Source: Membranipora membranacea (Eukaryota; Bryozoa; Gymnolaemata; Cheilostomatida; Membraniporidae). Taken from it: 64,000 nucleotides of DNA. The position numbers and the translations under genes are program-made. The notes under the pieces were generated by a model, which was not told where the DNA came from, did no database searches, and worked only from the letters and a program-made list of their open reading frames with translations. Of the stretch, positions 1-64,000 are shown piece after piece (position 1 is the first letter of the stretch; each line of letters opens with the position of its first letter). The stretch lies in assembly GCA_914767715.1 (NCBI GenBank), contig OU612069.1:7936001-8000000 (forward strand). The letters run 5' to 3'.

Positions 1-45
1 TGTTCCCTCAGGTGTAACTCTGATGATGATTGTGCCAATTTTCAG
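1..45 (+). CDS. Copy 0 exon 38, 3' end only
   Basis: The last 45 nt of an exon matching 29729-29773 and 60553-60597. It reads in frame as a CSLRC step, then NSDDDC and ANFQ, and ends at a cag|gtgac donor in phase 0. The other copies have Ala where this one has Ser. It shows that a further block lies upstream of the window. The following 1030-nt intron (46-1075) has no recognisable gene or repeat. Confidence 0.82.
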
Positions 46-3000
46 GTGACTACACAATGATTTGATTCTACCGTAGTTCCCTCACTTAACCCTTGTGATG
101 AATCATTTTCTGTCTTAAGCGACCTGCTAATCTAAAACAATCAGCTGTCATATGATATTTCAAAATAATCATCTTTCTTGTCATATGGACTCAATGTGGC
201 CTTGAAGCTTCAATGAAATTAAGACTGGGATTGTCAAAGCTGTTTTCCTAGCTAGTGAGCTTCTAAACAAGCACAAAAACGACCCTCTGGGACAACCAGA
301 AGCTGTGTTATGAGTCAATGAAATCAACCTTTTCAATATTCGCTCGTAAGTTCGGAAAACCTGGGTGTGAGGTCACATCAGGGTTTTCGACCAATATTCG
401 ATATTTTTTGTATATGGAACTATTAAAGTGAAACCTACTTTTTTCCGCCGGATAATCTGCGTTATTCTCTTTCAATATTTTGTTTTGACTTAATTTCTAT
501 GATGACACTACATAAGTCTGAAGTTTCTTATGTTCGACGTATACGCAAAATGTGAGTTCATGACCCCGTAGCCCCCTACGTGAAGCTCGCAAGGCCTTAC
601 TTTGATAAGTCTTAACTTCCGTCCTAGTAGGCCAATGGAGCTGTTCTTGTGCTCATTTTGAAGCTTATAGGCTGGAGTAGTTCTTCTTTAAAGGTAAACT
701 TAACTATATCATGATTCTTATTTGATTAAGTATAAGGATTTTGTTAGGGTATATCTTGGAATCAATTAAACCTTATTTGATGCTAATATTGATTTCTCAT
801 AATGAGCTAGAGTCATTCTGATTCAAACTTCTTCCTGTGTGTATTTTCTGCAACAATGTAGAATTCAATGTCAAAAATGATTGCTATTCATACTGCATAT
901 TCACTCATTCTTTTAGTCACAGTAAATGAATGACTATGTATTTAAGATCTGATATGTTGAACTGTAGTACCTTTTGTTATTTGAAAAACACTTCCTGTGA
1001 ATGCATGGGTTCTGGGTATAAATATATAGAGGTTCCAGCTAAGTGATTTATTTTTCTTTTCACTATATCGCATAGAAATGCTTTGCTGGATTGTGTTCGG
1101 AGATTTGCAGAACTGACAACAATGATATGCTGCATTGCTCAAATATGAATGACAGGTGCCTAGAAGGCCTTTGTAGAGATATCTGCAGCCAAGGTAATGA
1201 TCATCATTCCTTATCTTAATAATCATCATTGCCTTAGAATAATCTCACCAAATACTGAACACTATAGTGACAGAACATACATCTGTGGCGTAGACTACCT
1301 AGCAACAATATTGGAGATTTTCTGCCTCACATAGTTGCTAGTATAAAACAAAATCCACATCATATGCTCTACCAATTAATACCACCAGCCACTAGAGACT
1401 CACATGGACAACTCCTTAATAATAATTCTCGAACATCACTTTTCTCAAGGAGCCTTTTTATGCGTTTTTGTTCATTCTTTATTTTTGTTGACATTGTCTG
1501 ATTTGTCTGATATGGACATTGATCAGTCAAAATAAAATAAAATGCAAAAAAAAAATCTGTGAAACAGTTCTGTTGGTCATTATAAAACGGTCATTGGTCA
1601 TTATAAAATGATTGGCCGAGAAATCAGAATACTGCAAGCACAACAGTACCTACATGATTTATTGTAGGAGTTGAATATATTAGATTAGTCAGTAGGTTGG
1701 CTCATACTTTCTCTGTTCTTTTGCTTACTAAATGCGCCTCAGCTTGCCTTCAAACATACATATTAATTCTAGCAGCAAGTACTTTTGTATTGATTTAGGA
1801 TTTCTACAGAGAAAATATTCATAGCTTCCCTAGGTTATTGTAAATGACTATAGTACCATACCTCAAATTTGTGGTTCCATTCGATTTTGAATTATGAATG
1901 CTAATGATTTCAATGATGGGAAAACATGAAAAACATTACCCTTTGAAGGCTTTGTGTGCAAGCACGCTATCAATACTTTCAATTTGTTTGATTAAACACG
2001 GTATGTGTATTCGCCTTAAAAAAAGTCATTCGTCACAATCGGAATTTGACTTTAATGCCATTTCCATGGGGCGATTACTCCCGAAATCCTTATTAAATCG
2101 CAACATGAGACCATAGTGATTGAATAGGAAGCACAGGTTCTGGAGATAAAAGATTGTTTCTGTTATTGAAAACTATGGTTAAGCCTTGGCATCAATTAAA
2201 TCGGTTGGAGTGGTAACTTTTGGCCTGTACAGTACCTTGAAACCATATATACCCAACTTAGGAACAGTTTAGAGACCTCACTCTTGCCAAGAAACTCTTT
2301 GAGTTTTCTCAATGTGAAATATTGCATGATGCTTCATTTTGTGTGGCAGAGGATAATCTGGAATACGGAGTGTGCCATGCTGGTATTGTGACAATATTCT
2401 GCAGCTCTGAGTCCGACTGCATGAGTAATACCGATATCTGTGAGTGGGGTCGCTGTCAGTCGCTATGTGAGCTAAATTCTGATTGTACCGATGACCAATA
2501 TTGTATCCTCTCGGTTTGCACTGTTGAATGTAATGTAAGTTGTGTCTACTGTTCCTGCTAAAAACTAATATAATTGTTTTAATCTGCTTGTCAGAACCAA
2601 TATGTTCAACTACAGATGAATCTGTATAATTTTCAAGTTAAAGGTCATAGTCTAACCTAGTTGCATGATGACAGTTTGATTCCGGTATCACCTTCGCTAG
2701 GATTTGTTGAATCAATCTGATTTCATGATTTTTGCTGTGTTGATAAAATCACTAAATTAACTAACATTGCATTGTATTGTTGAAATGAGTGGTAACGGAT
2801 GAGGCAGTAATATCATAATTGAATTATTTATAATAACTGCCTCAATAAAAATTGTTGAGACATTGTATTGTGTCCAAGCACTGAAAGGGTTAAAAGATAA
2901 TTTTTATCTGCATCATAAATGAGGCTACTACAAACATATCTTATATATTATGGTTCGACAAATGAACCTGATTTTCAATTCTTGATCATGTCGCCTTTGT

Positions 3001-6000: not shown

Positions 6001-9000
6001 CATAATATGATAAAATATCTTTTATTTTATTGCCTGTTTGGTTGACAAAATTCCTTAAATGTTTTTATGTTTTTTGTAACTTAAACTGAGATTATTCAGC
6101 TTTCAAACCCGGAAAATATTTCATCCTATTATGGACAGTTTCCAAGATACGCACATCTTAGCTTCTTTTTCCTATGCTGTGTGGTAACCAAACTGGAGGG
6201 AGGAAAACTCTGAACATAGAATAACATTAAGAGCTTGCGGTTCAAATTTTGTCTGCTGTTTTTCTTTTAGTCTTGTGTCTAAGCCATTGCCTTAATATTG
6301 AGAAAACAAAATATGGACAGAAGATTATGTATGGGAATATTGATTTTTGCAGGTTGTATGTTTGACTCTCAATGTCCGATATATGCTGTCTGCCGCTCTG
6401 GATACTGCCTTCCCTATTGTTCAGTTAATTGTGAGAATTACCCAGGATTCAGCTGTTCATCTAGTGGTGTTTGCAGCCAACAATGTGAAACAAGTGAGTT
6501 ATTATCAGATGTGGATCTTTGACTATTACGATAGTTTACTACACGTGGTTGGGGAGGGGGGGGGGGGGTGAGTGGAAGAGAGCAAATGGCAGACCATATG
6601 CTACTTTCCTGAAAGTAAATTTTATTCACTTTTGATATATCTCATTTACCTGGCATTGGCTCTGTTTCCTACCCTACATATTATCAGTTCAAAGCCTAAC
6701 CATCGGCTCTCGACATTTGCGAAGTGGCCATAACAAATTTATTGTGACCGGAGCTTTGTTTAAGTTCAAGCATCAGCCAGCACTGAATATCTTGTTAAGG
6801 AAGCGCATGAATACAGTACAGTTTTGACTCTGTGAATGGAAAATGTGCCAGTCTCCATCCTTCTCCATACAATCTTCACGGGAACATTTAAACTACTACA
6901 GGTTGATATTTGTTACACATGTCAGCAAAAAAATAGAAACTGTTTTAAAGCTATATTCCTTTCGCTTTGCTAGTTGAAACCTGTATTTGACTGATTTTAG
7001 ATAGTGATTGTGGAAGGCAGCAAGTTTGCTCTCTCGATGCTATTTGTGACACTCCATGTCAATCGAATAATGACTGCTCGTTTGGACAAACATGCGACAA
7101 TGGGTTATGTAAGACTGCTCCCAATATTGATACGCTGTATGAAACATGTAATTTAGACGCTGACTGCGGTAGGTTCAAAACATTCATTACAATTCTCTGA
7201 TTTATTTCATTTCTGTAGCAAAACCGATTTGAAGTGCCTGAATCGGTAAAAATTTGAGTATGTAATTGGAAGGGTCCATGTTCCTAATACTTTTCCACGC
7301 AAGTGACACCTGGATCACCTACACATTTTGTCAGTATTTTTTGCAATTTGTCATTCATGGCTAATATTGAATTTGTCATTTTCATATGCAGGCACAGCAT
7401 CACGAAAACGCAGGTTCAGTTTCATTCAGAGCATCTTTCACCTACCAACATATGATGTAGCATCTGAGTGTAGAAAAGGAGTATGTGTGTACTCTCAGCA
7501 AGATGACTGTTCAGATGTTACGAACAACGGCAACGGTCCAGGTTTGATTCGAAGGAATAAGTACATCTTTTTATATCATCATCACCTTCATTATCATCAC
7601 CATCATTGTCATCATCACCATCGTCATCATCATCGTCATCCACCTCATGGCCCAATCACTACAACCAAAACTACCTCTACAACCACTTCCGCGGTCGTAG
7701 ATTTCTTGCTTTGTCTTTCTCAGCGTTGGTATACTCTTGCCGGCATTGGTATAGGGTGTCCCTCATGTTATGCGATTGAAGAGGAATTGACTTCTCTCAC
7801 ATCTGTTACCCTTTCGCTAGGTTTCACTAGCTCTAGGAAGCACTGTCAAATAAGCTAAAATTGTGTTCAAATGGTAATTGATAAGCCGAAATACTCGCTC
7901 TGAATGGCAGTTGAATGTAGGCTGCTTGGCTGTCTCCATACGCATAGCCACTCAGAGTAAGCACATTACCTAATAAATGAATGGCCCCCAGCACCCTTGA
8001 GTGTAAACCTCTCTTAACGATATTCATAGTATTAACAACTTGCCACTTTTGTTCATCAGTGTGGTACATTTTTTATTGATGTCTTTGCAGATGCGAATCA
8101 TGAATGCGTATCAGATATAGAGTGTGCAGGTCTGGGGACTGTGGCAGTATGTGAAGGCACTCCTAAATCCTGTCGATCATTCTGTCAAAACAGCATGTAC
8201 TGCCCAGGTGGAATATGCACTTCAGTAACAAGGGTTACAGGGGAGACAATAAATGTCTGCATGGCACAGTGTACTAATTCATCTGCAGATTGTGATTGTA
8301 CAGACTCACAATTTTGTCTCAGTAAGTTTTTACATATTCCGCTCAAGTTTGGGCGGTGATGCAGTTTCAAACTAAAGAAGACGTTCCAATATTTAGAGTA
8401 GAAGAAATACACATATTCAAGATAAAGCCCCTTGATAATAGCTCAGGGCTCAGCAGCATTCAGTTTTTGGTGACATTCCAATATGGAATGATAGCGTAGT
8501 TGTGGTGATATCCTTGAATGGAAGTCAACAACCCAGTCTTTTTGTTCATAGCTCTTATTTCAATCGGATTTCTGGCTTGAAAATGCCACTCTGTAATGTG
8601 GCAATATATCAATAAAGGAATCTTGAACAAATAAAAACATGTTGTGATCTTGATTCGCCATTAATGTAGTTTATTCATGAACATTCTGATAGGAAGAATC
8701 TTTCAATGCCAATCTAAATTTTTTTTCATGTTGATTCATGTCATGGTAGAAAATTCTTTTATTTCCAGCTGGAAGATGCTTCACACTTTGCGATCAATTA
8801 AATAATCAAAGCAATGCATGCTGGGAAGCCGGGACAATATGTAATCCATATGCAAACTACTGCTCAGTGCCATGCTTGGTAAACCTACTCATATATATTA
8901 TGCAATATGCTTTCATTTAGACATGTTATCGCTAAATTACCGATGACCACTTCAGTGATTCCGCCCATATGTTATAAACATGTGAACAAGTACCTGAGAA

Positions 9001-12000
9001 TCAAAACAGCCGATGACCTCAAGGTTGAAAGAGGCTTAGGGAACTGGCTCTGTCTGCTTGCATTTTGTCTTCCTAGTTATACAAAGAAGAGCAAAGTTCT
9101 GAGATGAGTAAGGTTTGCGTAAAAATATTTATTTGCAGGTAGATTCTGATTGCCGCTCTGATTTGGGAGTTATGTCAGCCTGTTTTGAGGGATTATGTGT
9201 TGTCGGATGTTTCAGTGATTCTGACTGTGGAGGTTCTGATTTCGAATGCTATCAGGGTAAGTGAAGTTAACAATTGTAATCATAATGTATGCCATATCTG
9301 AAATTCCTGCTGTACTACCTAATGTAATTAATTTTCAGTCACATAAGTTGTAGTAGTGGCTATGGCGTAATGACCATGAATAAAACAACTCCAAAAACTT
9401 TAACTTTATATGACCTGCTGAGGTTGATTAAGAAGACTTGAATAATTCACTATACTCAAGTGTCTGGTGACGGTGATTTATGAGAAAATTTGCCCATTGT
9501 TGCCTTCTCTTTTCAATGTTTGCACAGAACAGGCCTGTTAGAACATCACGACACCCTGGCTTGCTTTTAACTTTTCTTGGTTCATGCGGTTTTTATTGTA
9601 TTTTCATGATGTACCATCTCCAACTTAATAGGGAAAACTTTATATTTTATTTTTATAAGTTAATGTTTAAAACATTATTTCATTTCTTGGTGTAATAATT
9701 TTTCCTAGATAAGGCTTTACATAAGCACTAAATAATCATTTTATACCAAAGTTGTCTAGTGCATATTTCAACTGGCCTACTCTGATGGAACATTGTGAAG
9801 AGAGAGCAAGAAAGGAAGCACTTTTCTAATCAGGCCACATAAAAAAATGATTTAGAAGAGGTGCCGCTGAGATGAGGCTAATAAATTGATTTTAATATAT
9901 GCTGCTCAAATTCTTTCTTCACAGAAAATTTCCCTTTTATTTTTCCAGGTATGTGTTTACTGTACAATCCTGGGGAGATACCGTGTGCAGCTGATAGCGA
10001 ATGTCCCGCAACTGTATTTTGCGAAGAGGCACAAGGAGTTTGTGTGTCACCATCTGACCCAAATACAAGCTGTCACAATGTGGGGGACTGTGGATCACTT
10101 GCCTGGTGTAACACAGAGGGTACTTGTGAGAGGGCTGTCAACATTGGTGAATCTTGTGACGGAAGCGAAGACTGCGGTATGCTTTGATAAACGATATTTC
10201 TATGCCTTCTCATTGCTTTTTTTGTTTTTTGTTTTCACATGGTCTTATTTGCTTCACGCATTGATCGGTGGTTAATAAAGTTCATAATATATAGCTAACA
10301 ACAATATTCAGTAACATGCTCACAGTTATACATTGTTACAAGTATACTAGGTCTCATTGGATCTAGACCATAACACACAGGAGGTATACTGTTTGCTTGC
10401 ATGCAGTTTAACGATTCCCCTCTGAGTCATAAAAAAAAACCAGTTATGAATGGCGAGGTTATAGAGTCTCAACCCCACACTATCCTAATAGAGTGATTAA
10501 ATTAGACCATTGACATATCTTCACTAGGAATATGGTTCTTAACTACACCCCCTATCCCCACCTATCTCCGCTCTGTCCTATATGAGTAGCGGGTGTCTGC
10601 CAGAGGCCTAGCACTATTCTTTATCTTCTGAGCTGTATTCTTCACTGAGAGAACAGTAGAGAGGACACTCATTACTGTAGCCACTGATATCTATCCATGC
10701 ATTCATATCAATGACTGTAGCTAATTGTGAACCTTGCGTGTTACAGGGCCATATGAAGATTGCAGGGGCGGTGAGTGTTTCTCACAGCAAACTAACACAG
10801 GATTGGTGGCAACTGTATGTAAGACTGAGGAGTGTGACTGCCGCTCAGAGAATAAGCAGTTGTATGGAGGCACAAGGTGTGAATCGACGCCAACAGATAC
10901 AGACGGTAAGCAGACCCGTAGTACTAGGGGAGGCAAGGAGGCACTGTCTCTCCTAGTAAGCTGAATATAGTGGCCTAATAAACACCACAATTGAATAATT
11001 CATGTTTGAATCAGCTTCTCTGGGATTTCCATTTGCTTGTCATAATATGTCTCAAATTGCTCGGCAAGGAGCTTACTGGTGATGCTTCTGACTCGCCTCG
11101 GACTTTTGCCTCATCTGCTTCAAATAAGCCAGAGGTTGTAGTACATGCGTGTTTTACAGTCCATTCTGCGTTTTCCACCCTTAAAATAGAGAGATTTATT
11201 ATGAATAGTAGGCATCAACCAATCATTTTTGAGGATGGTGAGATGACACAATCGGTTAGTGCGCTTGCTTTTCACTGGCAGGCGATTGGTGCCGCAGGAT
11301 TTGTGGGTATATACCTCATGGTGTAAAGAATTAAGATGTAAATTTAAAGCTGACATTTTAGATTGCTATGACAGCGAGGAATGCCCTGGTTTTGCATGTC
11401 TGTCAGGTAATTGCTTTCTGGTATGTAACGGTGATGGCCAATGTCCGTGGAATCATCACTGTGTGGAAGGTTTATGTGAGCAAAGTTGTCTCAACTTGGA
11501 CATACCAGGTATGTTTATAGTCAAGCTTTTGAGTATCTCCCTCCCCACCCTCTATCTTTCTTTTTTTCATCGATAAGAAGTCTGCTCAGTGAAATTTCCT
11601 GAGATTAATAATCAATATAGAATTAAATTTTAACCTCGTACTATCATGAACATTAGGCATGTCTTAACCAGACCTGATAGAGTGGTATTAAACTAATCCA
11701 ATCAAGAAGATTTTCTTTGTAGAGTTCAGCTGCCCTCAAAGCCTGGTTTGTGAAGAGAATAGGTGCAGGATGACATGTACTGCAGGTTCGGGCTGCTTTT
11801 CACACCAGGATTGTGTTGAAGGTCATTGCATCAACACTTGTGTGACAGGTAATGAAATATTTTTGATCTTTTATAAAAGAGTTTTTGCAAGTGTATAATT
11901 CATTCAGGCGGTGGTGTATATTCAAATTGAATTCTCCAATGACTTAATCACACATATGAGTGAGTTAGTTAACTAAATTAAAAAAGATATCAGCAGAAAA

Positions 12001-15000
12001 CACTAATATCAAGGATTTGACTGATGACCCACACAAACACAGTCAGATAGTGAAGCCAATCGGGCATGATAGCACACATAGCCTGAGACAGCACAGTCCA
12101 CACAATGACAATGCAATTAGCAAACTCTTCAGGTGAATGTTAGGGGCCACAATGTGGTTCACCACAGCTACAGAAGGAGTGATCAGCAATATCCACTGAT
12201 GTCGATGATTTGACTCTGTGTAGCAGGTTTTTTTTGTGCAGAAGGAGTGATCAACGTTTCTTGTGCTTTTAGATATGGACTGCCAAGAGGGCCAGCTCTG
12301 CTCAGGGGGAGAATGTCACTCACAATGCTCTCTGAATGATCATTGCAGTGGTGGCTTGATATGTAATGGAGGTGTGTGTTCTAGGGCATGCACAGTATCT
12401 ACTCAGCTAAGTGTATGTGGAGAGCGATTCAAATGCGTTCTTGGTGTTTGCAGCCGACCCTGTGTGGTGAGTACCAAATCTCTTCAATTGATTTGAAAAA
12501 ATGTTGGTGAAAATCAGATCTGCCTCTGTCTTAAGTAATGAAAGTATCTTAAGGGCGCAGCCGTTAGTTCGCCCACTAGTTGCTCTCAGTTTGCAAGGTG
12601 TTAATTGAGTCCAGCAGTCAGTATGCTGCAGCAGGGTTTGAACCCTATACCTCCAAAATTTGCATATTAGAGGACAGGCGCCCTAACCAACTGAGCTACC
12701 TCCTAATCCCTATGAAACATAATAATATGTCTCTTTTTTTCTCGAGAAACAATTTTGCATTCCCATTCTTGTAAATCTTGAATGCTTTTGTAGCACAATC
12801 TTTACCAATTATGATAGGAAGAAGTTCAGCGTATTACTACATATTGGACATGAGGTTACCTTTAATGAGTCAAACCAGGCCAAAAGTGGGCCTTGGTACC
12901 ATAAATATTATGATTGCCTTTACCAAGACCACTCATATTATCGATTCTTGTACTCACCAAGTGTAACAGATGAATCCTGTTTTTCCTTTTAAGCTAGATC
13001 AGGATTGCTTGAGAGGTGACCTCTGTTTGGGTGGCGTGTGCACTCAAGGTTGTGACCAGGATTCTAATTGTCTCATGCCCGGTGGAGAGTGTGGATCTGA
13101 AGAGCACTGCTCTGTAGTATGTGTTGGAGCAGATACAGACACTTGTGGTGACAATAACTGGGCATGTGAAAGCGACATGTGTGTAAGGAAATGCGCCTTA
13201 GGAGCAACAGATTGTCATCCATCACAGGTATCCTTAACATTGCGAGTTCATCTCTATCATCACTTTCCTTACAATTATCTATCACTTACATTTGCGCCAC
13301 CATTGTAATTGTTACCGAATCTTTTTACCGTTTTGTTGTGTTTATGCAAGTATGACAGATAAAGAGAAATATCTAGTGTAAAAGAAATGATTATTTCAAC
13401 TGCTGTTGGCCTTATCTATTGATTACCATTGAATATATTTTCTAAAATCTGTACCGCGTTGCTTGTAGTCAATGTCAAACTGGGTGGCAGGGTGGTGTAG
13501 TGGTTAGGGTTCAAATCCTGGTCACTTCTCAAGCCGCTCATAGAGGTGAACTCTTCGTACATAACCCTGACTTGTCCTTCCCTACTTTGTACAAGGGTGC
13601 GCTATATAGAGGACTTGTATCATGTGTGTCATGATGAAAGCTTATTCTCATTGACCCAGAAATGGGCACTGAATAGCAAATAAAGTTGATTATCATAAAT
13701 TCAATTCGTTTTCTAGATTTGCTCCGACTCGCAGAGTTGCATAAAGAATGTAGGTGAAGATTGCGAGATGGATCTTGACTGCAATTCCGATCCCTTGTAC
13801 AGCTATAAGATATGCTTAGCAGGAGCTTGTGAAGAGATCTTCAAATATCAGCATGACTGTGACACACCAGCTGATTGTGGTAAAAATTATTTTATTCGGT
13901 TTTATGCGCCAGAAGTCATTCTTGATTTGGTACTGGCACACTACAATTTAGCTAGGTCCGCAAACCCCTCTTTCACTTTGATATAAAGATAATCTGGGTT
14001 TCCATCGTAGAATAGCCTGGGATTCAGGCCAACAATCAATGGGGCCTTTTCTGCATTATTTGTTGTGTTGGATATTGCTTCTGTGGTGTTATCTACCCAT
14101 GTATCACAGTTGTGCATTTCTGAATAGACCCATGTGCTTGTGTTTCGGTTTTGTTTTGATCGGTTTTGGCTTGTTGTTGAGTAGATAGCTCCAAATTTTT
14201 GGACTGAATCCCAGTCTAGAAAATTGTCTTTCATTTTGATGTAAGAGTAGCTTGGTTTTCATTGGACATGGGTTTACGATGATTAGTGATTACTATGGTT
14301 CCCTAGTACCTATTCCCATGAGAGGGTAACTCCCTCCACTTTAATGTTGATGATGAACCCGATTAACATTTTCATTCAGTCAGTTCTACATTGAGGAAAA
14401 ACTCCCAATCTTCATCCTATTTTGAGTGTAAGCATTTTTGTCTTTCAACAAGCCATAAAAGATACTTTTGGCAATTACTAAAACCCAATGAAATCGACAG
14501 ATTGAAATATCATGTATGTTGAACAGTCAGATGGTTGTCATATTATTTATATTAATAAAATTGTTGTACATATTTCCAGGACCATATGCTTTGTGCATAT
14601 ATGGCAGATGCCAATGGCCACCTGGGTTAGTAGATGCTAGTTGTGAAGAGGGACAGTGCATTACAGATGGGGATAAATATTATAATCTGCCAAAATCACC
14701 GTCACCAAAAACATATCCATGTGATGCTAACGATACTTTCTACCTTTCTTTTTGTGAGTATACATACATACATTTGAGTATGTGAGTATACATACGGCCT
14801 CCTGTATGCTAACTTTAATTGTGTTTGTATTGTGTTTGTATTATTGTATTATTGTTCTATTGTATTTGTATTAAGTTTGTATTATTTTTGTATTGTAGTA
14901 CTATTGTATTTGTATTGTAATTGTATTATATTTGTAATGTAGTTCTTTTGAACTTGTATTTTATTTGTATTGTATGTGTGTTTTCAAAATTGATTTTTTT

Positions 15001-18000
15001 TGAGGATGTAATTTCAAACCGCTTCATTCAGGGTGAAAATTCGCGTTGCTGAACATTCAGACATTCCATTGTATTGAACCTTACGTTGATGATAGATTAG
15101 GCAGCATCATTCCATCACCATTTCCGATATTTGCTACTTTCATTTATTAGTCAAGCCATTAATCTTTCCCATGTGGCTTGACTTCCAACTTACAAAGGGC
15201 CTAGGTATAATTGCTCAAAGTGATTATGACGGAATCAGGTTTTTGGTATCATTCTGGAGTTCTCAGTACATTTTAGAAAACTGCTTTAATGTTCATGAAC
15301 AACATATCCCAGTTGTAACTCAGTTTTACTCAAAGTTGAGATGCAAAGGTAATATATAGGTACCATGTTTTTAAAAAGTAAGTACTAAATAATACCGTTT
15401 TAGTACCTTTCAATCTCAACTTTGAAGTGAACATCAGTTGTAACTGGGCCACTTGCTGTTAATGTGATATATCGCTTTTTAAAACTTTTTGATATTGTAT
15501 TGGTGATATATTGGTCTAATAGTTATTTTCACAGTTGAAACTCCCAAATGTTTGACGTTGAGTCGCAATGACCTCTTGAAGTTCATTTTTGGGCAAAAAT
15601 TGCCCTTTTTAAATTGTGCCCTCTGTATGCCTGTGTTTTAAGGTACATGATTAGTTTATGCTTTCACCATATAGAGGAGGCATGGCACTAACTGGAGGAG
15701 TGGCATTTTGGTGAAACTTTATGATTTTAGGCCTCTTGCTTTGAGACTTGAAACTGATTTTTGCAATGGTAATAGGGCCATTTCTGACCCCTCATTACAT
15801 GCGACCCCAATAATGCAGAAACTAAAATTTCCAATTCATTATACCATTTGGGTCTTGTACTGTCACTTCAATCAATAATCTTACCATCTTACAGATCCTT
15901 GTTGTCACAACTGTAAAAGATAATAACCCAAATTTTAACTAATTTAGGTCGCAATTTTCAAGCCAAAAATCAGAAATTCAGAAAGATGTCAGTCAAATTT
16001 GTTGTCAGCATGATGAACGATAGGAGATTGTCTAGGTTTTGATCGAAGCGATTGTTGATTATGGCTTTACATCTTAAGATATTTGGATTATTGTGGCTAA
16101 ACCAGCTTTATTTGGTTCAAAACATGCATTTCTTTCCAGCCAAAGAACTGAAATTAGGTTAAACAACATGTTATACACACTAGCTTCCATTAAACTAGAG
16201 AGTATTTCCGAGGTTTTGATCGTGGCGTTTGAGGATAAATTTATTAGTAGAGAAGTTATGAGCATAAACATTTCTCTTTCCATGCCAAACAATCACCCTA
16301 AAAAGGTGATCCATTGTTGTACACAATGTGCTTTGCATGTAATACTGCCTAGGTTTCCATCATGCTTTTGCACAACGTACTTTACTGTATCATTTTGCCC
16401 ATTGCTGCCTATAGGTTTTCAATGCATTTGAGTTAATGCAACATTACTCAAATTAGGAACATGCGATTTGAAAAAGATTGTGATATTAAACATAAGTATG
16501 ACTACTTGCGGGCGATGTGTCAGTGAAGGACTTTTTGAGATGGGACAAGTAGTGCCTTAGAAACTGAAAAGGCGATATATCACGTTAATAAATAGTTATC
16601 TAAATTAGATTGAGAACTTAAGAATGATATCAAAAAACCTGATTTCTTCACGATCAGTCTAATGCTGATTGAAGGTGGGCGAGTGATAAGTGCTGGAGTA
16701 TGTACTCAGGATCCTATCACATCAGAACATGTATGTGGATGTGAGGATGGAGATCAGCTGTTGTATGATACATGTGTTCCGGAAACTTCTAGTAGGTCCA
16801 TTTTTCTGCATCCAGCAATTGTCCACCTTGTTTACTTTCTTGATTTACTTTGCCTTTCAGAACATTATGTTTGTTTGTTGGTGATGTTTATGGGTTATTT
16901 ATTGGAAGCAATTACAGAGGCATCGAGCATGTAGCATGGTTGACATGAATAAGAAATAGCCACTGCATTGTGGTCATCATAATAGACAAAGCAATACGAC
17001 ATCCTGTAATGTATGTTAGCAGACTGGCTAATTAGTGATAGCCATCCATTTTTATTATAGCCATGGCATATATAACAAGAATATTTTACCTAAAGACACA
17101 TTTCCAAACTGTTGCTAAATTAACATTCCAATCTCATGAATGCTAAAGAAGCATATATTCCATTTTTTAATAATGATCAATGTTCATGCAATTGACAGCT
17201 AACTATGGTTGAGATAAATTATTGAACCGTGTCTTTTAAAACTTATTGTCTGTGTCTATTTCATTCCAGTAGCGGATCTTTGTCTGAATAGTGCCAAGGG
17301 GAAACAGGACAAAGAAAGCTTGATGATAAATTATGTTACTCAATCCTAGACAAATTTACTTTTGACAGCGTGCCACGAAAATCTCCACTGTTCTGGTACT
17401 CTGATCTGTATGGGAGGGTTATGTCATTTCCCATGTACTGGAGATCGGAATGATCAGTGTAGTTATGGTCAGTTGTGTACATCAGGTTTGGTGTGTAGTT
17501 TCATGTGCCAGGGTGCTGACGAGTTGTGTCCACATGGAACTGTGTGCCACAGAGGGCGCTGCGAGCAAGCAGTGAGTGACACTATTAGCCAGTACAATAA
17601 AAGTTAGGCCTTACTGATTACAAAAAGTTGTTTGTCTCTTATATGGCAAAGCCATTTGCTTTTGTGTTGTAACAATTTGAAAATCAATTTAGGATGCTCT
17701 GCCAGCATGAGTGTATCCTCTGTCTGTTTAAATTTTGCAAAGAGGACAAAACCACTTCCACGTTATTCTAAAAAAAAAGAAGTCAACACTGCTAAAGTTG
17801 TATTGCCTGTTGATGAAACAAGATATAGCCCTGGCAGTAGTTGCATTGATCAATATTATTATAATATTTATATTATTACATGACACACACAAATTTTATG
17901 TTTGAATGTTCATCGTAGATGAAATCGTCTGAAGCTTTTATATTTTATTGCCTCATAATTTAACATAGTATCTTTGTTTAGTGTGATCCGCAGACAGAAT

Positions 18001-21000
18001 GGAAGGACAAATACTGCGACCTAGCAACGCAGATATGCCTTGATGGTATATGTCACCACACAAGTGCAGATCTCGACTCGCAATGCTCGGACAATTCATT
18101 TCCTAGGAACTCTGTCTGTGTGTCCCGATGCAACTCAGGCAAGATATCTAATGGTTTCAAATCTTTGCCCCTTGTATGTAGATTGTTACATTATTATTCC
18201 TCTAAAGCCAGCTTAGTGGAAAGTTAAAAGTGACATATACAGTATGTTTTAGACAGTGAATGCCCTGATATATGTGCTTTTGGAGGATGTTCATTGAGCT
18301 GTAGCATTATAAAGCATTGTCCTAATGGTTATGTATGTATGAGTGGGCGATGTTATGTAACCTGTGCTCTTGTCTCAGGTGAGTCTTCTTTAAAAAACTA
18401 TGATAATATCTGTTGCTTATCAGACCATTTTGAATTCACTGTTGGTTAACAGCTTCACATCAATAATAGACTTTGTTAATGACGCTCCCAATAGTCCAAG
18501 AGGAATGAACTATGTATTATGAAGCCCCATAAAACTTCAAGTTTTCATATAAACAAAAATGTAGCGAGTATTTTGTGTTTGGTGGAAACTTTCATGTTTA
18601 CAAGCCAATAAAATTTCACTCCTAGATAACGAAGAAGATAAATGTGGCTTACAGGGAGACGGGTTCATGTGTATAAGAGGCCTGACCAATGATGAGCAAG
18701 GGCCTGGTATCTGCTCCTATACTGTAGACAAACAACATCCCTCGCTGAAGGTAATACTGAGGTCCTTCTATTTGATGTTAGATTGTACTTTAAGCAAATT
18801 TACTATAGATTTATAACAACTGTCATCATGTGAACTTCAACCTGAAACTACGGTGTTTAGGCACGATTTTTTTCTAATGATATTGTAATTGCAGGATATA
18901 TCAGATGTGACTGGTTGGTTTGGAGCAGATTTCCATCGAGGTGTTGACCTTAGTGGTACAAACGTTACATCAGACACCGGATCAGGAAATCCGAAGAGGG
19001 GTGGGGGAGCTGCGTTTATTGCTGGCAATACTCTGGTGTTCTCCTGTACTGTTCAGTCAGACTGTGGTTAGTTACAATTACAGCCTCAATATTATGATTC
19101 ATTCAATACATTTACACTACCAGAGACTTGTCAAAAGGTCATTTCTTTTTTCCTTTTGTTTGTTGTCTGTCTTGCGTATTTCAGGGACCAATCGTATAGG
19201 TATACTGATATTTTCATATAGAAATTGAAATTGAGCTGAACAAATACAATGCACAGTGGTTCACGAATCACTGGCACTAGCTCACTTTTTCGGCTAGGAG
19301 CTAGTTTAATTGTGTGAACTGTGCCGTGATAGCTGGTAGTAGCCTTTCATTGATTGTTAGCGAAATGCTTCTACCAGCTATCCCAGCATAGTTCAAGCGC
19401 TTAAGCTAGCAAACAGTCTATAATTACATAAGTGCTGATTTGGCGCCAAGATGCTTACAGTTAGCAGGCACATTTAAGCATACCTAGGGCACAGAGGCCC
19501 AATAGTTGAGATTTGTACCCAGGAACTCCAACGATTACTTGAAACAGGTCAGATGCTCTAACTTAAATGAGCTACCTCTACTTATGTTTAGAAGTAAGAG
19601 TTGGTGTTTGTTCCATCAGCATGCAAATTTTAAAGGTCAAGGGTTCGAAACCCACTGCTGTCCACCATCTTCTGAGACTGGTTGGTTCCCCAGGTGTGCT
19701 CAAACCTGCCTACAAACTGTAATCAAAATGGCACAGACACTGCAGTCTTGCCTCTAAGCCACCCACTATTTGCCTGCCATTCTTCGGAATGTGGGGAGTG
19801 ACTATAACTTGCAATTTTTTGACAAACACCTTAACCACAATACTCACTGACTAGGTGCAGGCTCCTCACTGATATGCTCTGGAGGGTTTTGCACAACTCA
19901 ATGTGATCCTGATATCCTGAGACAGTGTGATGGTAATGTGACCACCTGCTTGACTGATCCTAGTCAACAAACAGCAGCATGCCTAATCATGTGAGAGCCC
20001 CTTACTCAGATTATCTAGGCATGAACGGTATGATGCTGGTAGATTATTGGCATAATAATTATTGTTAGAATATGAGTAGAATACTGGTATAATATTACTA
20101 GAATATTGGTGGAATATTGGTATAGTGTATGTAAAATATTAGTATGATATTGGTAGAACATTAGTAGAATATTGGTAGAATATTGGTAGAATATTTGTGT
20201 AATATTGGTAGAATATTGGTAGAATTTTGGTGTTATATTGGTGTAATGGAATATTGGTGTTATATTGGTGTAATATTGGTGCAATATTGGTGTTATATTG
20301 GTCCAATAATGGTAGAATATTGGTGTAATATTGGTAGAATATTGGTGGAATATTGGTGTAATATTGGTGTAATATTGGTGTAATATTGGTGTAATATTGG
20401 TGTAATATTGGTGTTATATTGGTGTTATAATGGAAGAATATTGGTGTAATATTTGTGTAATATTGGTAGAATATTGATGTAATATCAGTAGAATATTGGT
20501 AGAAAATTGGAAGGATACTTGTAGATTATTGGTAGAATAATAGTACATTATTGGTAGAATATTAAAGGAATATTGGTGTAATATTAGTGTGATATTCACA
20601 GAATATTGATAGAATAGTGGTAGAATAATGGTGAAATATTGGTAGAATATCGGTGTACTGTTTGTGGAATATTGGTGGAATATCATTATCTATTATAGAT
20701 GTGGCATATACTCTACAAAGAATTGTCCACCAAACACCTATTGTGGAGTGGTAGAAGATACGGATGTGTGCCTGCCAAAAGTGGGCAAGTCATGTTCAAG
20801 AAATGTTACAAACACCTGTGCTGAACTCCATATACCAAGCTTCCTGACATGTTCACCAAAGGGTGTGGACGGAGATGGAATGTGTGAGATTGCTGATGAC
20901 CTCGGAAGGACTTGCTCTGAGACGGTTTTCTGCTGTAAGGTTGATTAAACATGAATAAAATCTGATGGCCATATCACACGCCACATCCCAAAGCACGGGC

Positions 21001-24000
21001 GGCGAAATAATGATTGCCTTGAGGGCTAGGTGGCAATTTCTGTGCCAGGTTGCTCTCTGTTTGCAGGCAGGTCGGAGCACAACTGGGGTCCAACCAATCC
21101 CCAGTAGGCAACTACTGCAGTGGGATAGGAACCCACAACCTCCAAAACTCGCATGCTTAAGGACCAGCACTCTAACCAACTGAGCCATTGTCCACTGCTA
21201 GTAATAAGGGTTTATCACAATTTGAAAAAGGGCCAAGTCTTGACTGGCCAAGTTAGCATGAATTAAACTGCATCACATGTTTACTGAGGCACAATTTCTT
21301 GTCAGCTTGTCATGTTCGGTGTTTCATCATCTTCAGGCAAATCTAAACAGAAAGAGTATGTATGTGTTATATTAGGAACAAATTGGATTGAATATGTGTG
21401 ACAAATATAAGCTTGACAAGCTTTGTTTGGTTGGGTGAGGGAGGACTAAAGCTTGTCAACTCTTGCAATCAGGTAAAGGATTGTCCCCTCTTGAAATCAT
21501 GAAAAACGTTAGTAAATTCTGGGATAATTTGTTTTAGTAATACAACTTCTCATTGCAGCTGTTACATCATACTGCCGTGATGGAGTGTGTTCCCGAGTTC
21601 CAGATTTGAGAATCAATGAGACTGGAATTCTACCTCCAGGTTCTGTGGTGGTATCGAAGTGGTTTTCAGTTTGATAACAGTTGTAATAATCCACTGTCAC
21701 CACATATGAAAATGTGTGCTTAGTGTATTCTGTATAGCTCGAAACTTACATTATGAGGCTGCAATCTCAGCATTGTCACCTAATTGGCAAATGTACGATG
21801 TAATTATCTACTAGATACCGCCTTACTAGTGGACTGTTATGACGTCATCCCCTAATTTCATACCCTGATTTTGAAGATCAGCTTGTGCAAATTATCTGCT
21901 CATTAGGTGATTATTCTAAGATTGCAGCCTCAACTAGTGTACTTGGAGCTCTACTGAAATTAATGAGCACGGATTCGCAGTGGCAGCAGAAGCTTGTTAA
22001 TTTTCATGAACCTCAGTTGATAGAGCACATTAGAAGAAACATTATCAAGCATACCCAGTGATGATATTTTCTCAGTTGTGATATTTGACCTACTGCGGTG
22101 ATTTAAAATTAGTTGTGTGTAAAAGTATTTTAGGATATGATGTCTGCGTTTATTTAAGTATTGAAGCAAGTCACTAATCTATCACATGTCTTCTATTACA
22201 TGTCTATCACGTGTATATTAAGTATCTATATTACATATCAATTACGTGTTTGTTATTACATATTTAAAACGTGGTATGTGTTTAAAAAATTACACCTTCT
22301 TTTACATGTCTCCTTTAAACAGTCACAAGAGAGGAAGATCTGGAAAGTCTCAATGGTGGTACTTCACCATGTGGGGGGTATGGTGTAATAGGGCTTCTTT
22401 ATGACCACTCAAGGGGACAATGTGTTTGCCCATATGATACTGTCCTCTATGGAATGAGGTGCATTGGCACTGCAATCGGAGATGGAGAGAGTCCTGCATT
22501 CATTGGTGAGAATGTTAGATATAAAATGAAAAGATAATAATATTACTTTATTGGTAAATCCATCAAAGACAGTTTGCATTTGTTTAAAAAGGTCCCGTGA
22601 TTATAAAGGCATATCATTTTAAACTTTGATACTGATAGGTATAACACTATGTAAAACCCTTTCAGTCTTAATTTTTGACATCCTGTATGATGTTCTGCTA
22701 AAAGATAGCAATATTTTACTATTCAGACTATAAAGCTTGTTAAACAATTTAGGCTTTTTCACTGTGAATCATTCTGCAAACTTTCTGAAACTAGCAACTA
22801 CAATTAAGTTTTTTCCTTTGTCAACAAACAAGAAAGTGAATAGCCATTTTTGCTGGATGCTGATGGGATTTAGAAAATATTCCTTCAGTATCCAGTATAC
22901 AGCACACAGCACACAGCACACAGCACACAGCACACAGCACACAGCACACAGCACACAGCACACAGCACACAGCACCCAGCACCCAGCACCCAGCACCCAG
23001 CACCCAGCACCCAGCACCCAGCACCCAGCACCCAGCACCCAGCACCCAGCACCCAGCACCCAGCACCCAGCACCCAGCACCCAGCACCCAGCACCCAGCA
23101 CCCAGCACCCAGCACCCAGCACCCAGCACCCAGCACCCAGCACCCAGCACCCAGCACCCAGCACCCAGCACCCAGCACCCAGCACCCAGCACCCAGCACC
23201 CAGCACCCAGCACCCAGCACCCAGCACCCAGCACCCAGCACCCAGCACCCAGCACCCAGCACCCAGCACCCAGCACCCAGCACCCAGCACCCAGCACCCA
23301 GCACCCAGCACCCAGCACCCAGCACCCAGCACCCAGCACCCAGCACCCAGCACCCAGCACCCAGCACCCAGCACCAAGCACCCAGCACCCAGCACCCAGC
23401 ACCCAGCACCCAGCACCCAGCACCCAGCACCCAGCACCCAGCACCCAGCACCCAGCACCCAGCACCCAGCACCCAGCACCCAGCACCCACCACCCAGCAC
23501 CCAGCACCCAGCACCCAGCACCCAGCACCCAGCACCCAGCACCCAGCACCCAGCACCCAGCACCCAGCACCCAGCACCCAGCACCCAGCACCCAGCACCC
23601 AGCACACAGCACCCAGCACCCAGCACCCAGCACCCAGCACCCAGCACCCAGCACCCAGCACCCAGCACCCAGCACACAGCACACAGCACACAGCATACAG
23701 TATCCAGCAAAACAAATGATCATTCACCTTTTTTGACTTTGGCAAAACATATTGAATAGATGTACGAAGCATGATTGCATGTGTTGAAAGTTCAATGAGA
23801 TATATTAAATATAATATAATATAATAATAATAATGTAATATATAATATAATCTAATATAACATAATATAATACATAATAAAAATTGTAAAATTTGAAATT
23901 TAATTGTATGTTTTTATGTATGTATGTGTATTTTGTATCAATTTTCATGATAAATGATGGTTGTTTTTCTGAGTGCTCTGTTGTAAAACAAGACATAAAA

Positions 24001-27000
24001 AATTCTCAATAAAAAATGACTAAGAATAAATGTATAAAATGTGTTAAAAAATAGAGTTTAACAGTCTTGCAAAATTTGATCTAAACAGAATTTTCTGGTA
24101 TTTACTCTGTATTTTGGGACGCGGTATCTATTCATTAAGGCTTTGTATATTTTGTGCAGTGTGTGACACTGAGAACGATTGTGGTAGAGGCTTCACATGT
24201 ATGGCCAATCGTTGCTTGATGAGTTGTACCGAGTATTTTGGCAGCGGGAAGTATATATGCGTACAAGGCGTCTATCAACCAACCTGTACCGTGAGTACAT
24301 TTTCCATATAATATAGTGTTATATATGATAATATAATATATAGTTACGATAATATAACATAATATGACATAATGATTTAATAATAATTCAATAAAATCTG
24401 ATAATAATATCATATAACATAGTTTAGTTCCTGCAAATACAAAAAACCTACTGTGTGCACTCAACCTATTTGAAACGGAGAAGCCGGTTACAGCAGGAAA
24501 AGGTGTTGGGTCATCACCTGCACAAGCCTCTGGTTTGAGTGGGGCCAGTGTAAAGGGTCCTCAAGTGATCTCATTAATATAAAAAAGTAGAAATCACTAT
24601 AACATTTATTTCAAAATTTTTGCTGAATGTCCATGGATTAAAAAACTCTAAACACCTAATATTATTTCCATTTCAATTTAATTGCAAAATTCATTTCGAT
24701 ATGTCTGCTAGCCTAATTTCTATCGAAGTGATTGTGGAGGAACAAGGTTTTTGGAACCATTCTTTAGTTCTCAGTCTAATTCAGAAAGCTGCTATAAGTT
24801 TCTTTAACAACATATGACCCATTTTCACTTCATTTCAAGGGGGCAGCTAAGCCAACGTGCATAACAGTATCAGATTTGCTCCGATTAAATTAAATTAGAT
24901 CCAACTTTGTTTTATGGAAGACTTGAGTTCTTTGGGTCTATGAAACCTTAACCAAGGTGGATTTCAGTTACCTCACCCAGCCCCTTCTCAAAGACAAGAC
25001 ACTTCAATTTTACTCAAAGTTGAGATGTGAAGGTACTAAAAAGGCACTATTTTAATGATAGTATATACAAAAAAGTACCCTTTTGGTACCTTCCAATCTG
25101 AACTTTGAGTGAAAATCAGTTGAAACTGAGCCATTTGCTGTTAACTGACCTTATAACAGTTTTCTAAATTTGACTGAGGACTCTAGAATGATACACACTG
25201 TTACACTTTAGAGGGACAATGATTGCCCTGCAGGTGCAACTTGCATCTCAGGCTCCTGCAGAGTGACATGTACAGATAACAGGATACAGGCTGGACGATG
25301 TGGGACACTGCATACATGTGTCGATGGTTTCTGCATGTTATACCCAGTAATAAGTGCAGATACGTGTCAGACTATGGAGCTCATCCACCTTCCAATTGAA
25401 GAGATATGTCAACAAGAATGTCTGACAGGTTGGTATGGTGTCACTGCATTGTATTCAATGTAACTCTCCTTTCTCTCTAGAATACAACACTAGATCCAAC
25501 AAATTTAAAATTGTTGAAACCAACAACAAGCATGGAGAGAGGTCCTTGTTGAGCAATGGCAGAGCCTTGTTCAACAAAATCCTTTAGTCACAGTCTATCT
25601 GGCTGACCCATGCTTTTATTTTCTTTCTCTTGGACATTTGTTACTCTCGCTTTACAATGTTTGTTTATAGCAGAATTCCAAAAACAAATACATGCTTTAT
25701 TGTCAATTGAAAATCCAGCCAATAAAAAAAAGGTTATTCACTGCCTAGTTTATTATAGGCTTTTATTTGAACTTCTAGGCAGTTACTTTATCAGGACATT
25801 GTCCACTGAGGATCCATGTTTTAATAGCGTTACCAACTGTCACTGCCAATTTTGTTGCATTACCACCTAACCGAAATAACATGCAGTTATAGCTGCATGC
25901 ACACTAACCATAAAACTTAATTACAGTATTTATATTTAACCTACATTTAGAGTCTGAGTGCCCAGGGGACCAGATATGTGTGGCTGGACTTTGCTCAGTA
26001 CACTGTGCACTAAGCCCTGTTTGCACTGGCGGTCGATTGTGCCTTGGTGGTGTATGTATGATACCTTGTGATTCCGATTCTCAGCCTTGTCCACTTCCAG
26101 ATAGTCAATCATGCATCAATAATGTGTGCTTGAGGCATTGTTCGGTAAGTTTATCAGATATACAATCACCAATCATTGAGCAAAGTCATAACATGCCCGT
26201 ACTTTATTTGCGCCAATTGAATTATGGTCATACGGCTATCAACCATCCAACCTCGGGTGTTCCCACTTCACTTGGCTATTTGAATTAGCTCAGACTTTTT
26301 TGGTCCGGTATAGGTTAACAACAAAATATTACTCAATCAGCATATCATTCACAATTCTTTCTAACAGCTCTGTGCTACAAAATTCCAAACTACAACATGC
26401 AAATCACCTTCCTCATTCTTTTACCAAAGTTATTGCTTGTGTATGTGATAAAATATTTTCCGTGAAAATTATCCTGACAGTGACACTGATATTTTCAAAC
26501 TTGCACATTATCTATTTCTGCATACATTCAGATAACAACTGCAAACGATCAGGTCAGTACTTGCTATAAGTTTTAAAATATTGACTCTGCAGTTATGCTA
26601 TTATCATTGGTTGTTTTGATTTTGTTAAATGTTGAAACTTCTTCAGTCGAATGTGGAAGTAGTGACTAAAATCCTGTTTAAGCCACACTATGGTCAACAG
26701 GAATGGCAGTCAACCATCTAATGATTCCCTAGCATGAACACAACACATGTGCGAGGTACTCGTATCACCAGCTACCTCAACATGACGACATTGAGATCAC
26801 ACACTGACTCTGTCCGGCTCACAGGGAGAGCCTGTTGAATTAAGTTATGCCAGCACTTGACAATAACCTCTCCCTATGCTTATTGTGTATTTACATAATT
26901 TATCATTTTTTAAGCTTAAGGTCAACTATATGTGGTATGATCCAATAAAACATTCAGTGTAAAAATGTCATTTTGTCCGTTTGACTGTTTTCGGGTTAGC

Positions 27001-36000: not shown

Positions 36001-39000
36001 CCATACCAGACATAGATGAAGGCATTTCCACTGGTATTTTTCTTTATCGTTTGCTGAGGTTGATAGGATGTCTTAATAAACATTTTCCTTGATAGGATGT
36101 CTTAGTAGACACTTTTCTGAGCCTGAATTTGAACATATGTATGGCGTTGTCCTCTCTTCAGTTTGGTACTCCTTAACCTACACAGTGAGCTGAAATGATA
36201 CAAACTGCTCATAATATGATAAAATATCTTTTATTTTATTGCCTGTTCGGTTGACAAAATTCCTTAAATGTTTTGATGGTTTTTGTAGCTTAAACTGAGA
36301 TTATTCAGCTTTCAAACCCAGAAAATATTTCATCCTATTATGGACAGTTTCCAAGATACGCACATCTTAGCTTCTTTTTCTTATGCTGTGTGGTAACCAA
36401 ACTGGAGGGAGGAAAACTCTGAACATAGAATAACATTAAGAGCTTACGGTTCAAATTTTGTCTGCTATTCTTTTTTTTAGTCTGGTGTCTAAGCCATTGT
36501 CTTAATATTGAGAATACAAAATATGGACAGAAGATTATGTATAGAAACATTGATTTTTGCAGGTTGTATGTTTGACTCTCAATGTCCGATATATGCTGTC
36601 TGCCGCTCTGGATACTGCCTTCCCTATTGTTCAGTTAATTGTGAGAATTACCCTGGATTCAGCTGTTCACCTAGTGGTGTTTGCAGCCAACAATGTGAAA
36701 CAAGTGAGTTATTATCAGATGTGGATCTTTGACTATTACGATAGTTTACTACACATGGTTGGGGAGGGGGGGGGGAGAGTGGAAGAGAGCCAATGGCAGG
36801 CCATATGCTACTTTCCTGAAAGTAAATTTTACTCACTTTTGATATCTCTCATTTACCTGGCATTGGCTGTCTTTCCTACCCTACATCTTATCAGTTCAAA
36901 GCCTAACCATCGGCTCTCGACATTTGCTAAGTGGCTATAACAAATTTATTGTGACCGGAGCTTTGTTTAAGTTCAAGCATCAGCCAGCACTGAATATCTT
37001 GTTAAGGAAGCGCATGAATACAGTACAGTTTTGACTTTGTGAATGGAAAATGTGCCAGTCTCCATCCTTCTCCATACAATGTTCACGGGAACATTTAAAC
37101 TACTACAGGTTGATATTTGTTACACATGTCAGCAAAATAATAGAAACTGTTTTATAGCTACATTCCTTTCGCTTTGCTAGTTAAAACCTGTTTTGACTGA
37201 TTTTAGATAGTGATTGTGGAAGGCAGCAAGTTTGCTCTCTCGATGCTATTTGTGACACTCCATGTCAATCAAATAATGACTGCTCGTTTGGACAAGCGTG
37301 CGACAATGGGTTATGTAAGACTGCTCCCAATATTGATACGCTGTATGAAACATGTAACTTGGACGCTGACTGCGGTAGGTTCAAAACATTCATTACAATT
37401 CTCTGATTTATTTCATTTCTGTAACAAAACCGATTTGAAGTGCATGAATCGGTAAAAATTTGAGTATGTAATTGGAAGGGTCCTTGTTCCTAATACTTTT
37501 CCACGCAAGTGACAACTGGATCACCTACACATTTTGTCAGTATTTTTGGCAATTTGTCATTCATGGCTAATATTGAATTTGTCATTTTCATATGCAGGCA
37601 CAGCATCACGAAAACGCAGGTTCAGTTTCATTCAGAGCATCTTTCACCTACCAACATATGATGTAGCATCTGAGTGTAGAAAAGGAGTATGTGTGTACTC
37701 TCAGCAAGATGATTGTTCAGATGTTACGAACAACGGCAACGGTCCAGGTTTGATTCGAAGGAATAAGTATATCTTTTTATATCATCATCATCTTCATTAT
37801 CATCACCATCATTGTCATCATCACCATCGTCATCATCATCGTCATCCACCTCATGGCCCAATCACAACAACCAAAACTACCTCTACAATCACTTCCGCGG
37901 TCGTAGATTTCTTACTTTGTCTTTCTCAGCGTTGATATACTCTTGCCGGCATTGGTATAGGGTGTCCCTCATGTTATGCGATTGAAGAGGAATCGACTTC
38001 TCTCAAATCTGTTACCCTTTCGCTAGGTTTCACTAGCTCTAGGAAGCACTGTCAAATAAGCTAAAATTGTGTTCAAATGGTAATTGATAAGCCGAAATAC
38101 TCGCTCTGAATGGCAGTTGAATGTAGGCTGCTTGGCTGTCTCCATACGCATAGCCACTCAGAGTAAGCACATTACCTAATAAATAAATGGCCCCCAGCAC
38201 CCTTGAGTGTAAACCTCTCTTAACGATATTCATAGTATAAACAACTTGCCACTTTTGTTCATCAGTGTGGTACATTTTTTATCGATGTCTTTGCAGATGC
38301 GAATCATGAATGCGTATCAGATATAGAGTGTGCAGGTCTGGGGACTGCGGCAGTATGTGAAGGCACTCCTAAATCCTGTCGATCATTCTGTCAAAACAGC
38401 ATGTACTGCCCAGGTGGAATATGCACTTCAGTAACAAGGGTTACAGGGGAGACAATAAATGTCTGCATGGCACAGTGTACTAATTCATCTGCAGATTGTG
38501 ATTGTACAGACTCACAATTTTGTCTCAGTAAGTTTTTACACATTCCGCTCAAGTTTGGGCGGTGATGCAGTTTCAAACTAAAGAAGACTTTCCAATATTT
38601 AGAGTAGAAGATATACACATATTCAAGATAAGGCCACTTGATAATAGCTGAGGGCTCAAGAGCATTCAGTTTTTGGTGACATTCCAATATGGAATGATAG
38701 CGTAGTTGTGGGGATATCCTTGAATGGAAGTCAAAACCCAGTCCTTATTATCATAGCTCTTATTTCAATCAGATTTCTGGCTTGAAAATGCCACTCTGTA
38801 ATGTGGCAATATATCAATATAGGAATCTTGAACAAATAAAAACATGTTGTGATCTTGATTCGCCATTAATGTAGTTTATTCATGAACATTCTGATAGGAA
38901 GAATCTTTCGATGACAATCTAAATTTTTTTCATGTTGATTCTTGTCATGGTAGAAAATTCTTTTATTTCCAGCTGGAAGATGCTTCACACTTTGCGATCA

Positions 39001-63915: not shown

Positions 63916-64000
63916 GTATGTGAAGGCAATCCTCCACTGTTTAAAAGAAGAACATAATTAAACTCAAACGTCAAAAACATGAAATGTTGTTAAATTTTAA

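Follow-up and report, generated by a model that had tools for sequence, protein, structure and literature searches.

The window is a stretch of 64,000 bp from contig OU612069.1 (C5) of Membranipora membranacea, C5:7,936,001-8,000,000, and positions within it carry the prefix w. Self-comparison revealed direct repeats of about 30 kb, with 90-99.5% identity in the main pieces. The window was extended by a 100-kb flank on each side (264 kb in all) to find the limits of the array, which consists of three units (A, B, and C), occupies about 97 kb (C5:7,908,426-8,005,407), and, with the flanks included, starts and ends at the identical unit position. Pairwise divergence among the units is 2.5-6%. 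Their natural borders fall between what the original prediction had numbered exons 10 and 11 (Table 1). That prediction described two complete and two partial blocks; in the natural register there are three whole units, and only unit B lies whole inside the window. Its proposal that the duplicated unit is a whole 38-exon set is borne out, with each unit running from exon n1 to exon n38. Mapping of the flanks for block count and terminal exons yielded the count of three and a 3' tail but no start exon.

Table 1. Coordinates of array features in the window (w) and on contig OU612069.1 (C5).
Feature	Position	Strand	Remarks
Unit A, 3' part (end of exon n29, n30-n38)	w1..7982	+	whole unit C5:7,908,426-7,943,982; 35,557 bp
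Unit B, whole (n1-n38)	w7983..38188	+	30,206 bp; 2,034 codons
Unit C, 5' part	w38189..64000	+	whole unit to C5:8,005,407 (w69407); 31,219 bp; 2,036 codons
Joint A/B	w7983	+	...AATGAATGG joined to CCCCCAGCACCC; GGCC common to both parent edges
Joint B/C	w38189	+	junction as in A/B, one substitution nearby
Unit A last exon, n38 (exon 10 of the original prediction)	w7392..7541	+	ends in phase 1; predicted splice to w8091
Unit B first exon, n1 (exon 11 of the original prediction)	w8091..8321	+	starts in phase 1
Unit B last exon, n38	w37598..37747	+	ends in phase 1; basic motif SRKRR
Unit C first exon, n1	w38297..38527	+	starts in phase 1
Unit B n1-n5	w8091-8321, 8769-8878, 9139-9256, 9949-10176, 10747-10905	+	
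Unit B n6-n10	w11350-11508, 11723-11848, 12273-12466, 12994-13227, 13717-13879	+	
Unit B n11-n15	w14580-14753, 16675-16791, 17369-17571, 17982-18153, 18253-18378	+	
Unit B n16-n20	w18626-18723, 18895-19066, 19861-19990, 20699-20934, 21559-21639	+	
Unit B n21-n25	w22323-22505, 24160-24290, 25212-25428, 25951-26144, 27031-27182	+	
Unit B n26-n30	w27856-28085, 28766-28897, 29122-29238, 29592-29773, 30887-31004	+	
Unit B n31-n35	w32177-32361, 32924-33059, 33430-33560, 35238-35358, 35851-36033	+	
Unit B n36-n38	w36563-36703, 37207-37374, 37598-37747	+	
n29-n30 intron of unit B (junction intron of the original prediction)	w29774..30886	+	phase 0
Best-supported switch point within unit B	w33931	+	agreement of B with C: 85% (1,326 informative sites) on the left, 32% (205) on the right

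Exon modeling started from a splice and codon model that was self-trained and went on to a comparative model of the three units; the final set of 38 exons was curated by hand against two paralogs and mapped to every unit. The first self-trained model was overfitted (388 exons) and was replaced by a stricter one, then by the comparative model. In the curated set the phase chain is unbroken across all 38 exons, as originally predicted, and both outer ends of the unit (the start of n1 and the end of n38) are in phase 1. Exons of unit C start in phase 1 in 26 cases, in phase 0 in 10, and in phase 2 in two. The predicted figure of 2036 codons per block holds for unit C (6,108 bp coding length), but the blocks for which it was given have 2,034 (6,102 bp in unit B) because n37 is 6 bp shorter. 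AG/GT dinucleotides are present at 227 of 228 splice positions in units A, B, and C together, a count that is not unbiased because exons were picked for sites in at least two of the three units and because the n28 donor in B was set by hand. A 14-bp duplication (w29236-29264), present in unit B only, doubles this donor and places two GTAAGT motifs 14 bp apart. The coding score of n38 is weak in the comparative model (-0.1). One intron of unit B contains a minisatellite (w22900-23695, 796 bp) in which the 7-bp motif CAGCACC occurs about 114 times, and the counterpart of this array in unit C has about 10 copies of CAGTATA (w54491-54563, 73 bp). Unit A likewise has a long 7-bp array, and the exon model read C5:7,929,638-7,930,007 there as an exon.

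The original prediction placed the block borders at three phase-perfect junctions (45/1076, 29773/30887, 60597/61707). Our own exon model and the curated set reproduced these junctions with phase 0 on both sides, but the true duplication joints lie elsewhere (Table 1). The same composite, ...AATGG/CCCCCAGCACCC, is found at both joints, and the array flanks hold one half of it each: the left flank edge reads ...TTTCGG/CCCCCAGCACCC and the right flank edge ...AATGAATGG/CCTTTCAAA. The 5 kb around the two joints are 97.1% and 95.9% identical in two pieces. To judge from this likeness, joints A/B and B/C look like one event that was copied. The single-unit paralog D (see below) keeps both the left and the right edge unrearranged. 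The first event probably joined the intron after n38 to the intron before n1 at the GGCC microhomology, after which n38 of one unit could be spliced, with the frame kept, to n1 of the following unit. Such splicing is possible because both introns are in phase 1, and the predicted spliced n38-n1 joints have an open reading frame throughout. As in intragenic segmental duplication, whole multi-exon blocks stand in direct tandem with intronic breakpoints, and the frame is retained across the joint.

Units A and C differ at 1,554 positions; unit B agrees with C at 1,189 of these, with A at 342, and with neither at 23. The best change point gave a log-likelihood gain of 116.8, compared with at most 7.7 in 300 permutations; the permutation overstates its significance because correlation along the sequence is ignored, but the gap is still large. 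Unit B is a mosaic of A and C, the pattern expected from a crossover between misaligned first and second units. Gene conversion could yield a similar pattern. In the step from two units to three, misaligned recombination between two units would have given the third copy and a hybrid middle unit. Near-identical tandem blocks are also a known failure of genome assembly, and the array could be read as an artefact such as stacked haplotypes. This is highly improbable, since the units differ at the level given above, A is 4-5 kb longer, and the minisatellite is 796 bp long in B versus 73 bp in C; moreover, the joint is a recombinant of a kind that haplotype stacking would not produce, and B combines parts of A and C.

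The genome (339 Mb in 18 contigs) contains related loci with one unit. Locus D (C5:8,637-8,599 kb) is inverted, lies 0.6 Mb from the array, and has 88-95% DNA identity to it in long pieces outside repeats. All 38 unit exons are open in D. In its gene model two TSP1-like exons precede n1 (phase 1 to 1), the tail is as in the array, and the transmembrane exon was read from the D sequence. Locus P2 (C5:7,745-7,804 kb by matches; 7,746,001-7,786,000 read) has one unit with 53.3% identity over 1,888 aligned residues. Counterparts of 36 of the 38 exons occur in P2 in the same order, 35 of them in the same phases (from a model, counted by hand); n5 and n38 have no clear counterpart, and in P2 n37 is separated from the tail by four other exons. 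At two further loci (C5:3.91-3.95 Mb and 9.57-9.62 Mb) each part found was matched once among the best-scoring candidates, with the exception of one weak cross-match at 3,914,768 in the former. Because D, P2, and these two loci are single-unit, one unit is likely the original state of the family. In principle, D could also be a contracted copy. The ancestral gene would have had a head, one unit, a tail, and a transmembrane helix, as in D and P2. Rooting with P2 gave derived-set counts of 20 (ABC), 16 (BCD), 16 (AD), and 19 (BC), which do not order the split of D relative to the first duplication. The exon pair on either side of the predicted phase-0 junction is present in P2 as well (CAIKCDSDEDCAIFQ / KCFAGTCMEPC, phase 0). 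These junctions had been offered as evidence that blocks are joined, and they are uninformative on tandem units because the same intron lies inside single-unit D and P2. A third copy of the tail exons is present on the minus strand at C5:8,565,371-8,570,203, about 35 kb downstream of the tail of D, and beside it there was no match to the unit exons searched.

The 3' tail consists of eight exons (C5:8,005,683-8,011,346) that follow unit C in phase and encode 451 residues with 56 cysteines. The last of them contains a hydrophobic stretch, LAIPLAVFLLLGVLTLIMWKR, judged by eye. Tail and transmembrane exons occur once in the 264 kb, downstream of unit C. A stop with AATAAA right after the transmembrane exon was considered as the gene end and rejected: D lacks the stop, and the array and D share a GTTGGT donor. 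For the same reasons further cytoplasmic exons are possible. Lysine-rich open frames, partly duplicated, lie 3' of the transmembrane exon (C5:8,012,000-8,016,900) and are possible cytoplasmic exons.

Tandem gene arrays are common, and the units could be three genes transcribed separately. In agreement with this reading, n38 continued beyond its donor runs into a stop codon whose last base is w7858 or w37935. However, A and B differ in where the read-through stops, and n1 opens at an acceptor in phase 1. Neither joint provides an own start and an own tail for each unit: head exons are missing there, the 922 bp lying between n37 and the following n1 contain three (A/B) and two (B/C) hydrophobic ATG frames, none with a phase-1 donor, and the exon model has no tail or transmembrane exon between units, with a single tail set after C. 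Three separate genes are therefore very unlikely. ATG frames that do have phase-1 donors lie in the second and third junction introns of the original prediction; there are three, all weak (score 2.7-3.0).

The 5' end of the gene differs from the 3' end in that unique flanking exons were found on the 3' side (the eight tail exons) and none on the 5' side. Homology between the array and D stops at C5:7,908,053, which is 19 bp past the donor of the second head exon of D. Searched against the 264 kb, the two TSP1-like head exons of D gave nothing better than E 0.46, and near-identical copies genome-wide were found in D only, among the best 68 of 185 candidates. Upstream, scanning for start exons with a signal peptide yielded eight candidates on the sense strand and eight on the reverse control. 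An LTR element with two 1,073-bp LTRs that are 99.8% identical (C5:7,899,450-7,907,714; L007-L008) ends 339 bp from the start of the array/D homology. Either a new start was gained, or the original start was lost.

Two lesions occur in unit A and in neither B nor C: n4 has a 1-bp deletion, and the donor of n14 has changed from GT to AT. Skipping of n4 would preserve the frame because the exon is 228 bp long and runs from phase 1 to phase 1. Skipping of n14 (172 bp) would break the frame, and the exon model found an alternative in-frame path there. Private changes polarised by P2 number 47 in A, 15 in B, 12 in C, and 37 in D. The lesions point to relaxed constraint acting on A or to an error in sequencing. 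They lower our confidence in a full-length product. Because the head exons are absent, the start scan equals its control, and unit A carries lesions and private changes, the locus could be a copy in decay that has no head, that is, a 5'-truncated duplicate related to D that was triplicated and is not, or is no longer, expressed as a full protein. The young LTR element close to the start of the D homology also favors this reading.

Selection on the coding frame argues against it. Each of A, B, C, and D is free of stops over 2,035 column-aligned codons, in an alignment that masks the n4 frameshift of unit A in codon counts; neutrality would predict 6.9 stops (B-C) and 16.2 (A-C). The dN/dS ratio was estimated by NG86 with bootstrap ranges for the six unit pairs (dS/dN/omega: A-B.067/.0275/.41; A-C.062/.029/.47; A-D.067/.0286/.43; B-C.0265/.0116/.44; B-D.058/.0244/.42; C-D.0535/.0271/.51). 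Omega thus lies between 0.41 and 0.51, and the 95% bootstrap excludes 1 in all six pairs, including B-C (0.30-0.67) and C-D, which has the highest upper bound (0.72). Exons hold two of the 82 indels between B and C compared with 16.0 expected, one of the two being the 14-bp duplication that doubles the donor of n28, and two of the 142 between A and C compared with 27.8 expected. Cysteine columns are invariant across the four units in 279 of 281 cases, other columns in 1,555 of 1,754. Units B and C parted after the first tandem duplication, and their omega is well below 1, with no stop in the aligned codons; the tail and transmembrane exon are also still in frame. If the head was lost very recently, the B-C omega and stop test would miss it. 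On balance, we regard a headless relic as unlikely.

We consider it likely that a 38-exon, 30-kb block was duplicated in tandem at phase-1 introns and tripled, most probably by unequal crossing-over, and that splicing unites its three in-frame units in a single giant type-I membrane protein. The original prediction of one gene with several repeats of about 2036 residues agrees with the coding capacity for three, the frame open across both true joints, the lack of a phase-1-donor start candidate or a tail at the joints, and the one transmembrane tail after unit C; its argument from phase-0 junctions is not upheld, and the head exons of the sister gene are missing 5'. From these models we infer a single transcript, secretion, and a lengthened ectodomain, which triplication would have made about threefold longer.

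The predicted product has three cysteine-rich units of about 2,035 residues with about 281 cysteines each, followed by a 451-residue tail with a transmembrane helix; a single-unit relative would have about 2,500 residues. Weak matches to DUF7107 (PF23416), Dickkopf_N (PF04706), and EB (PF01683) occur along the unit, all below Pfam cut-offs; these and the TSP1-like matches point to an animal genome, as its many introns do to a eukaryotic one. DUF7107 scored 22.9 bits in the best of the pieces scanned and 16.6 bits in the whole block (gathering score 24.6), and the best scores for Dickkopf_N and EB were 20.5 and 19.7 bits (gathering scores 25 and 24.3). In the head of D, one exon matched TSP1 (PF22195) with 22.7 bits (gathering score 27), and the other had no match. 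The DUF7107 match across n29/n30 rose from 16.0 to 21.8 bits once spliced, and it fills the whole profile only with the intron between these exons (w29774..30886) spliced out. A literature search on DUF7107 found no paper. A protein search with one block found a single distant metagenome protein (P0001), with 28% identity over 17% of the query. P0001 has 2,616 aa, a longest contig of 32 kb, a long series of CPxGxxCxxGxC-like repeats, and DUF7107 as its precomputed label. Search of solved structures with one 252-residue piece gave two matches that were not significant (best E 0.07), and structure prediction for n4 from four sequences had a mean pLDDT of 51.8. An Rfam search found no families, and a tRNA search found no tRNAs.

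Exon n38, which ends the unit, encodes SRKRR in all four units including that of D, and the tail starts with KRQKR in the array and KRRKR in D. We take these motifs to resemble furin sites. The matching tail exon of P2 is without the basic motif in the model, and P2 is also without a counterpart of n38. Furin-like cleavage at SRKRR/KRQKR is a speculation from these motifs; it would nick the protein and not release a part of it, because the site lies in a loop between cysteines apparently of one module. By analogy with other disulfide-rich ectodomains, the product would form an extended extracellular stalk anchored by a single membrane helix, at about three times the length. A more far-reaching proposal, which we put forward tentatively and consider doubtful, is that the locus encodes one membrane protein of about 6,500 residues and 900 cysteines, with furin-like nicking at SRKRR in each unit and an ectodomain whose length is set by the number of 38-exon units. 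Under this proposal, individuals would differ in steps of about 2,035 residues because the units still recombine.

CR1 is a disulfide-rich type-I membrane protein, and its domains are of the SCR type. Internal repeats of proteins are often visible only as worn-down end products. The closest known systems to the array are the repeats of CR1 and the triplicate region of nebulin. CR1 has between three and six LHRs across four size alleles, whose number changes by unequal crossing-over (PMC4842007), and its LCR1 is described as an 18-kb intragenic segmental duplication (PMC9235356). The product predicted here would share with CR1 the disulfide-rich type-I membrane architecture with a repeat block, but its domain type is another one and its block is larger than the CR1 block. 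In the triplicate region of human NEB (exons 82-105), blocks of eight exons and 10 kb occur three times (30 kb in total; PMC9109913). The array is alike in having a multi-exon block three times inside what would likewise be one giant gene, and different in having 38 exons and 30-36 kb per block, about 97 kb in total, and 2.5-6% divergence. NEB is also sarcomeric, in contrast to the predicted cysteine-rich, membrane-anchored product. The segmental duplication of titin PEVK comprises nine exons in three copies; the region is about one third the size of that of NEB, and the protein is unrelated (PMC9142044). By its DNA anatomy, the array would fit the kind represented by NEB, TTN, and CR1. To these it adds the larger unit, the joint at base level, and the single-unit sisters. 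The duplication steps are readable at base resolution from the microhomology joint, the mosaic middle unit, and the single-unit sister genes. If the gene is expressed, a 30-kb, 38-exon block can triple with its reading frame under selection, and the locus would be a natural test of whether such length changes in a giant ectodomain are of consequence and differ within a population.

Downstream of the tail, tandem repeats of about 335 bp with open frames of about 80 codons (NLQKYTKGGYHAFFSLGSKNRF...) occupy C5:8,021,600-8,029,800 (L013).
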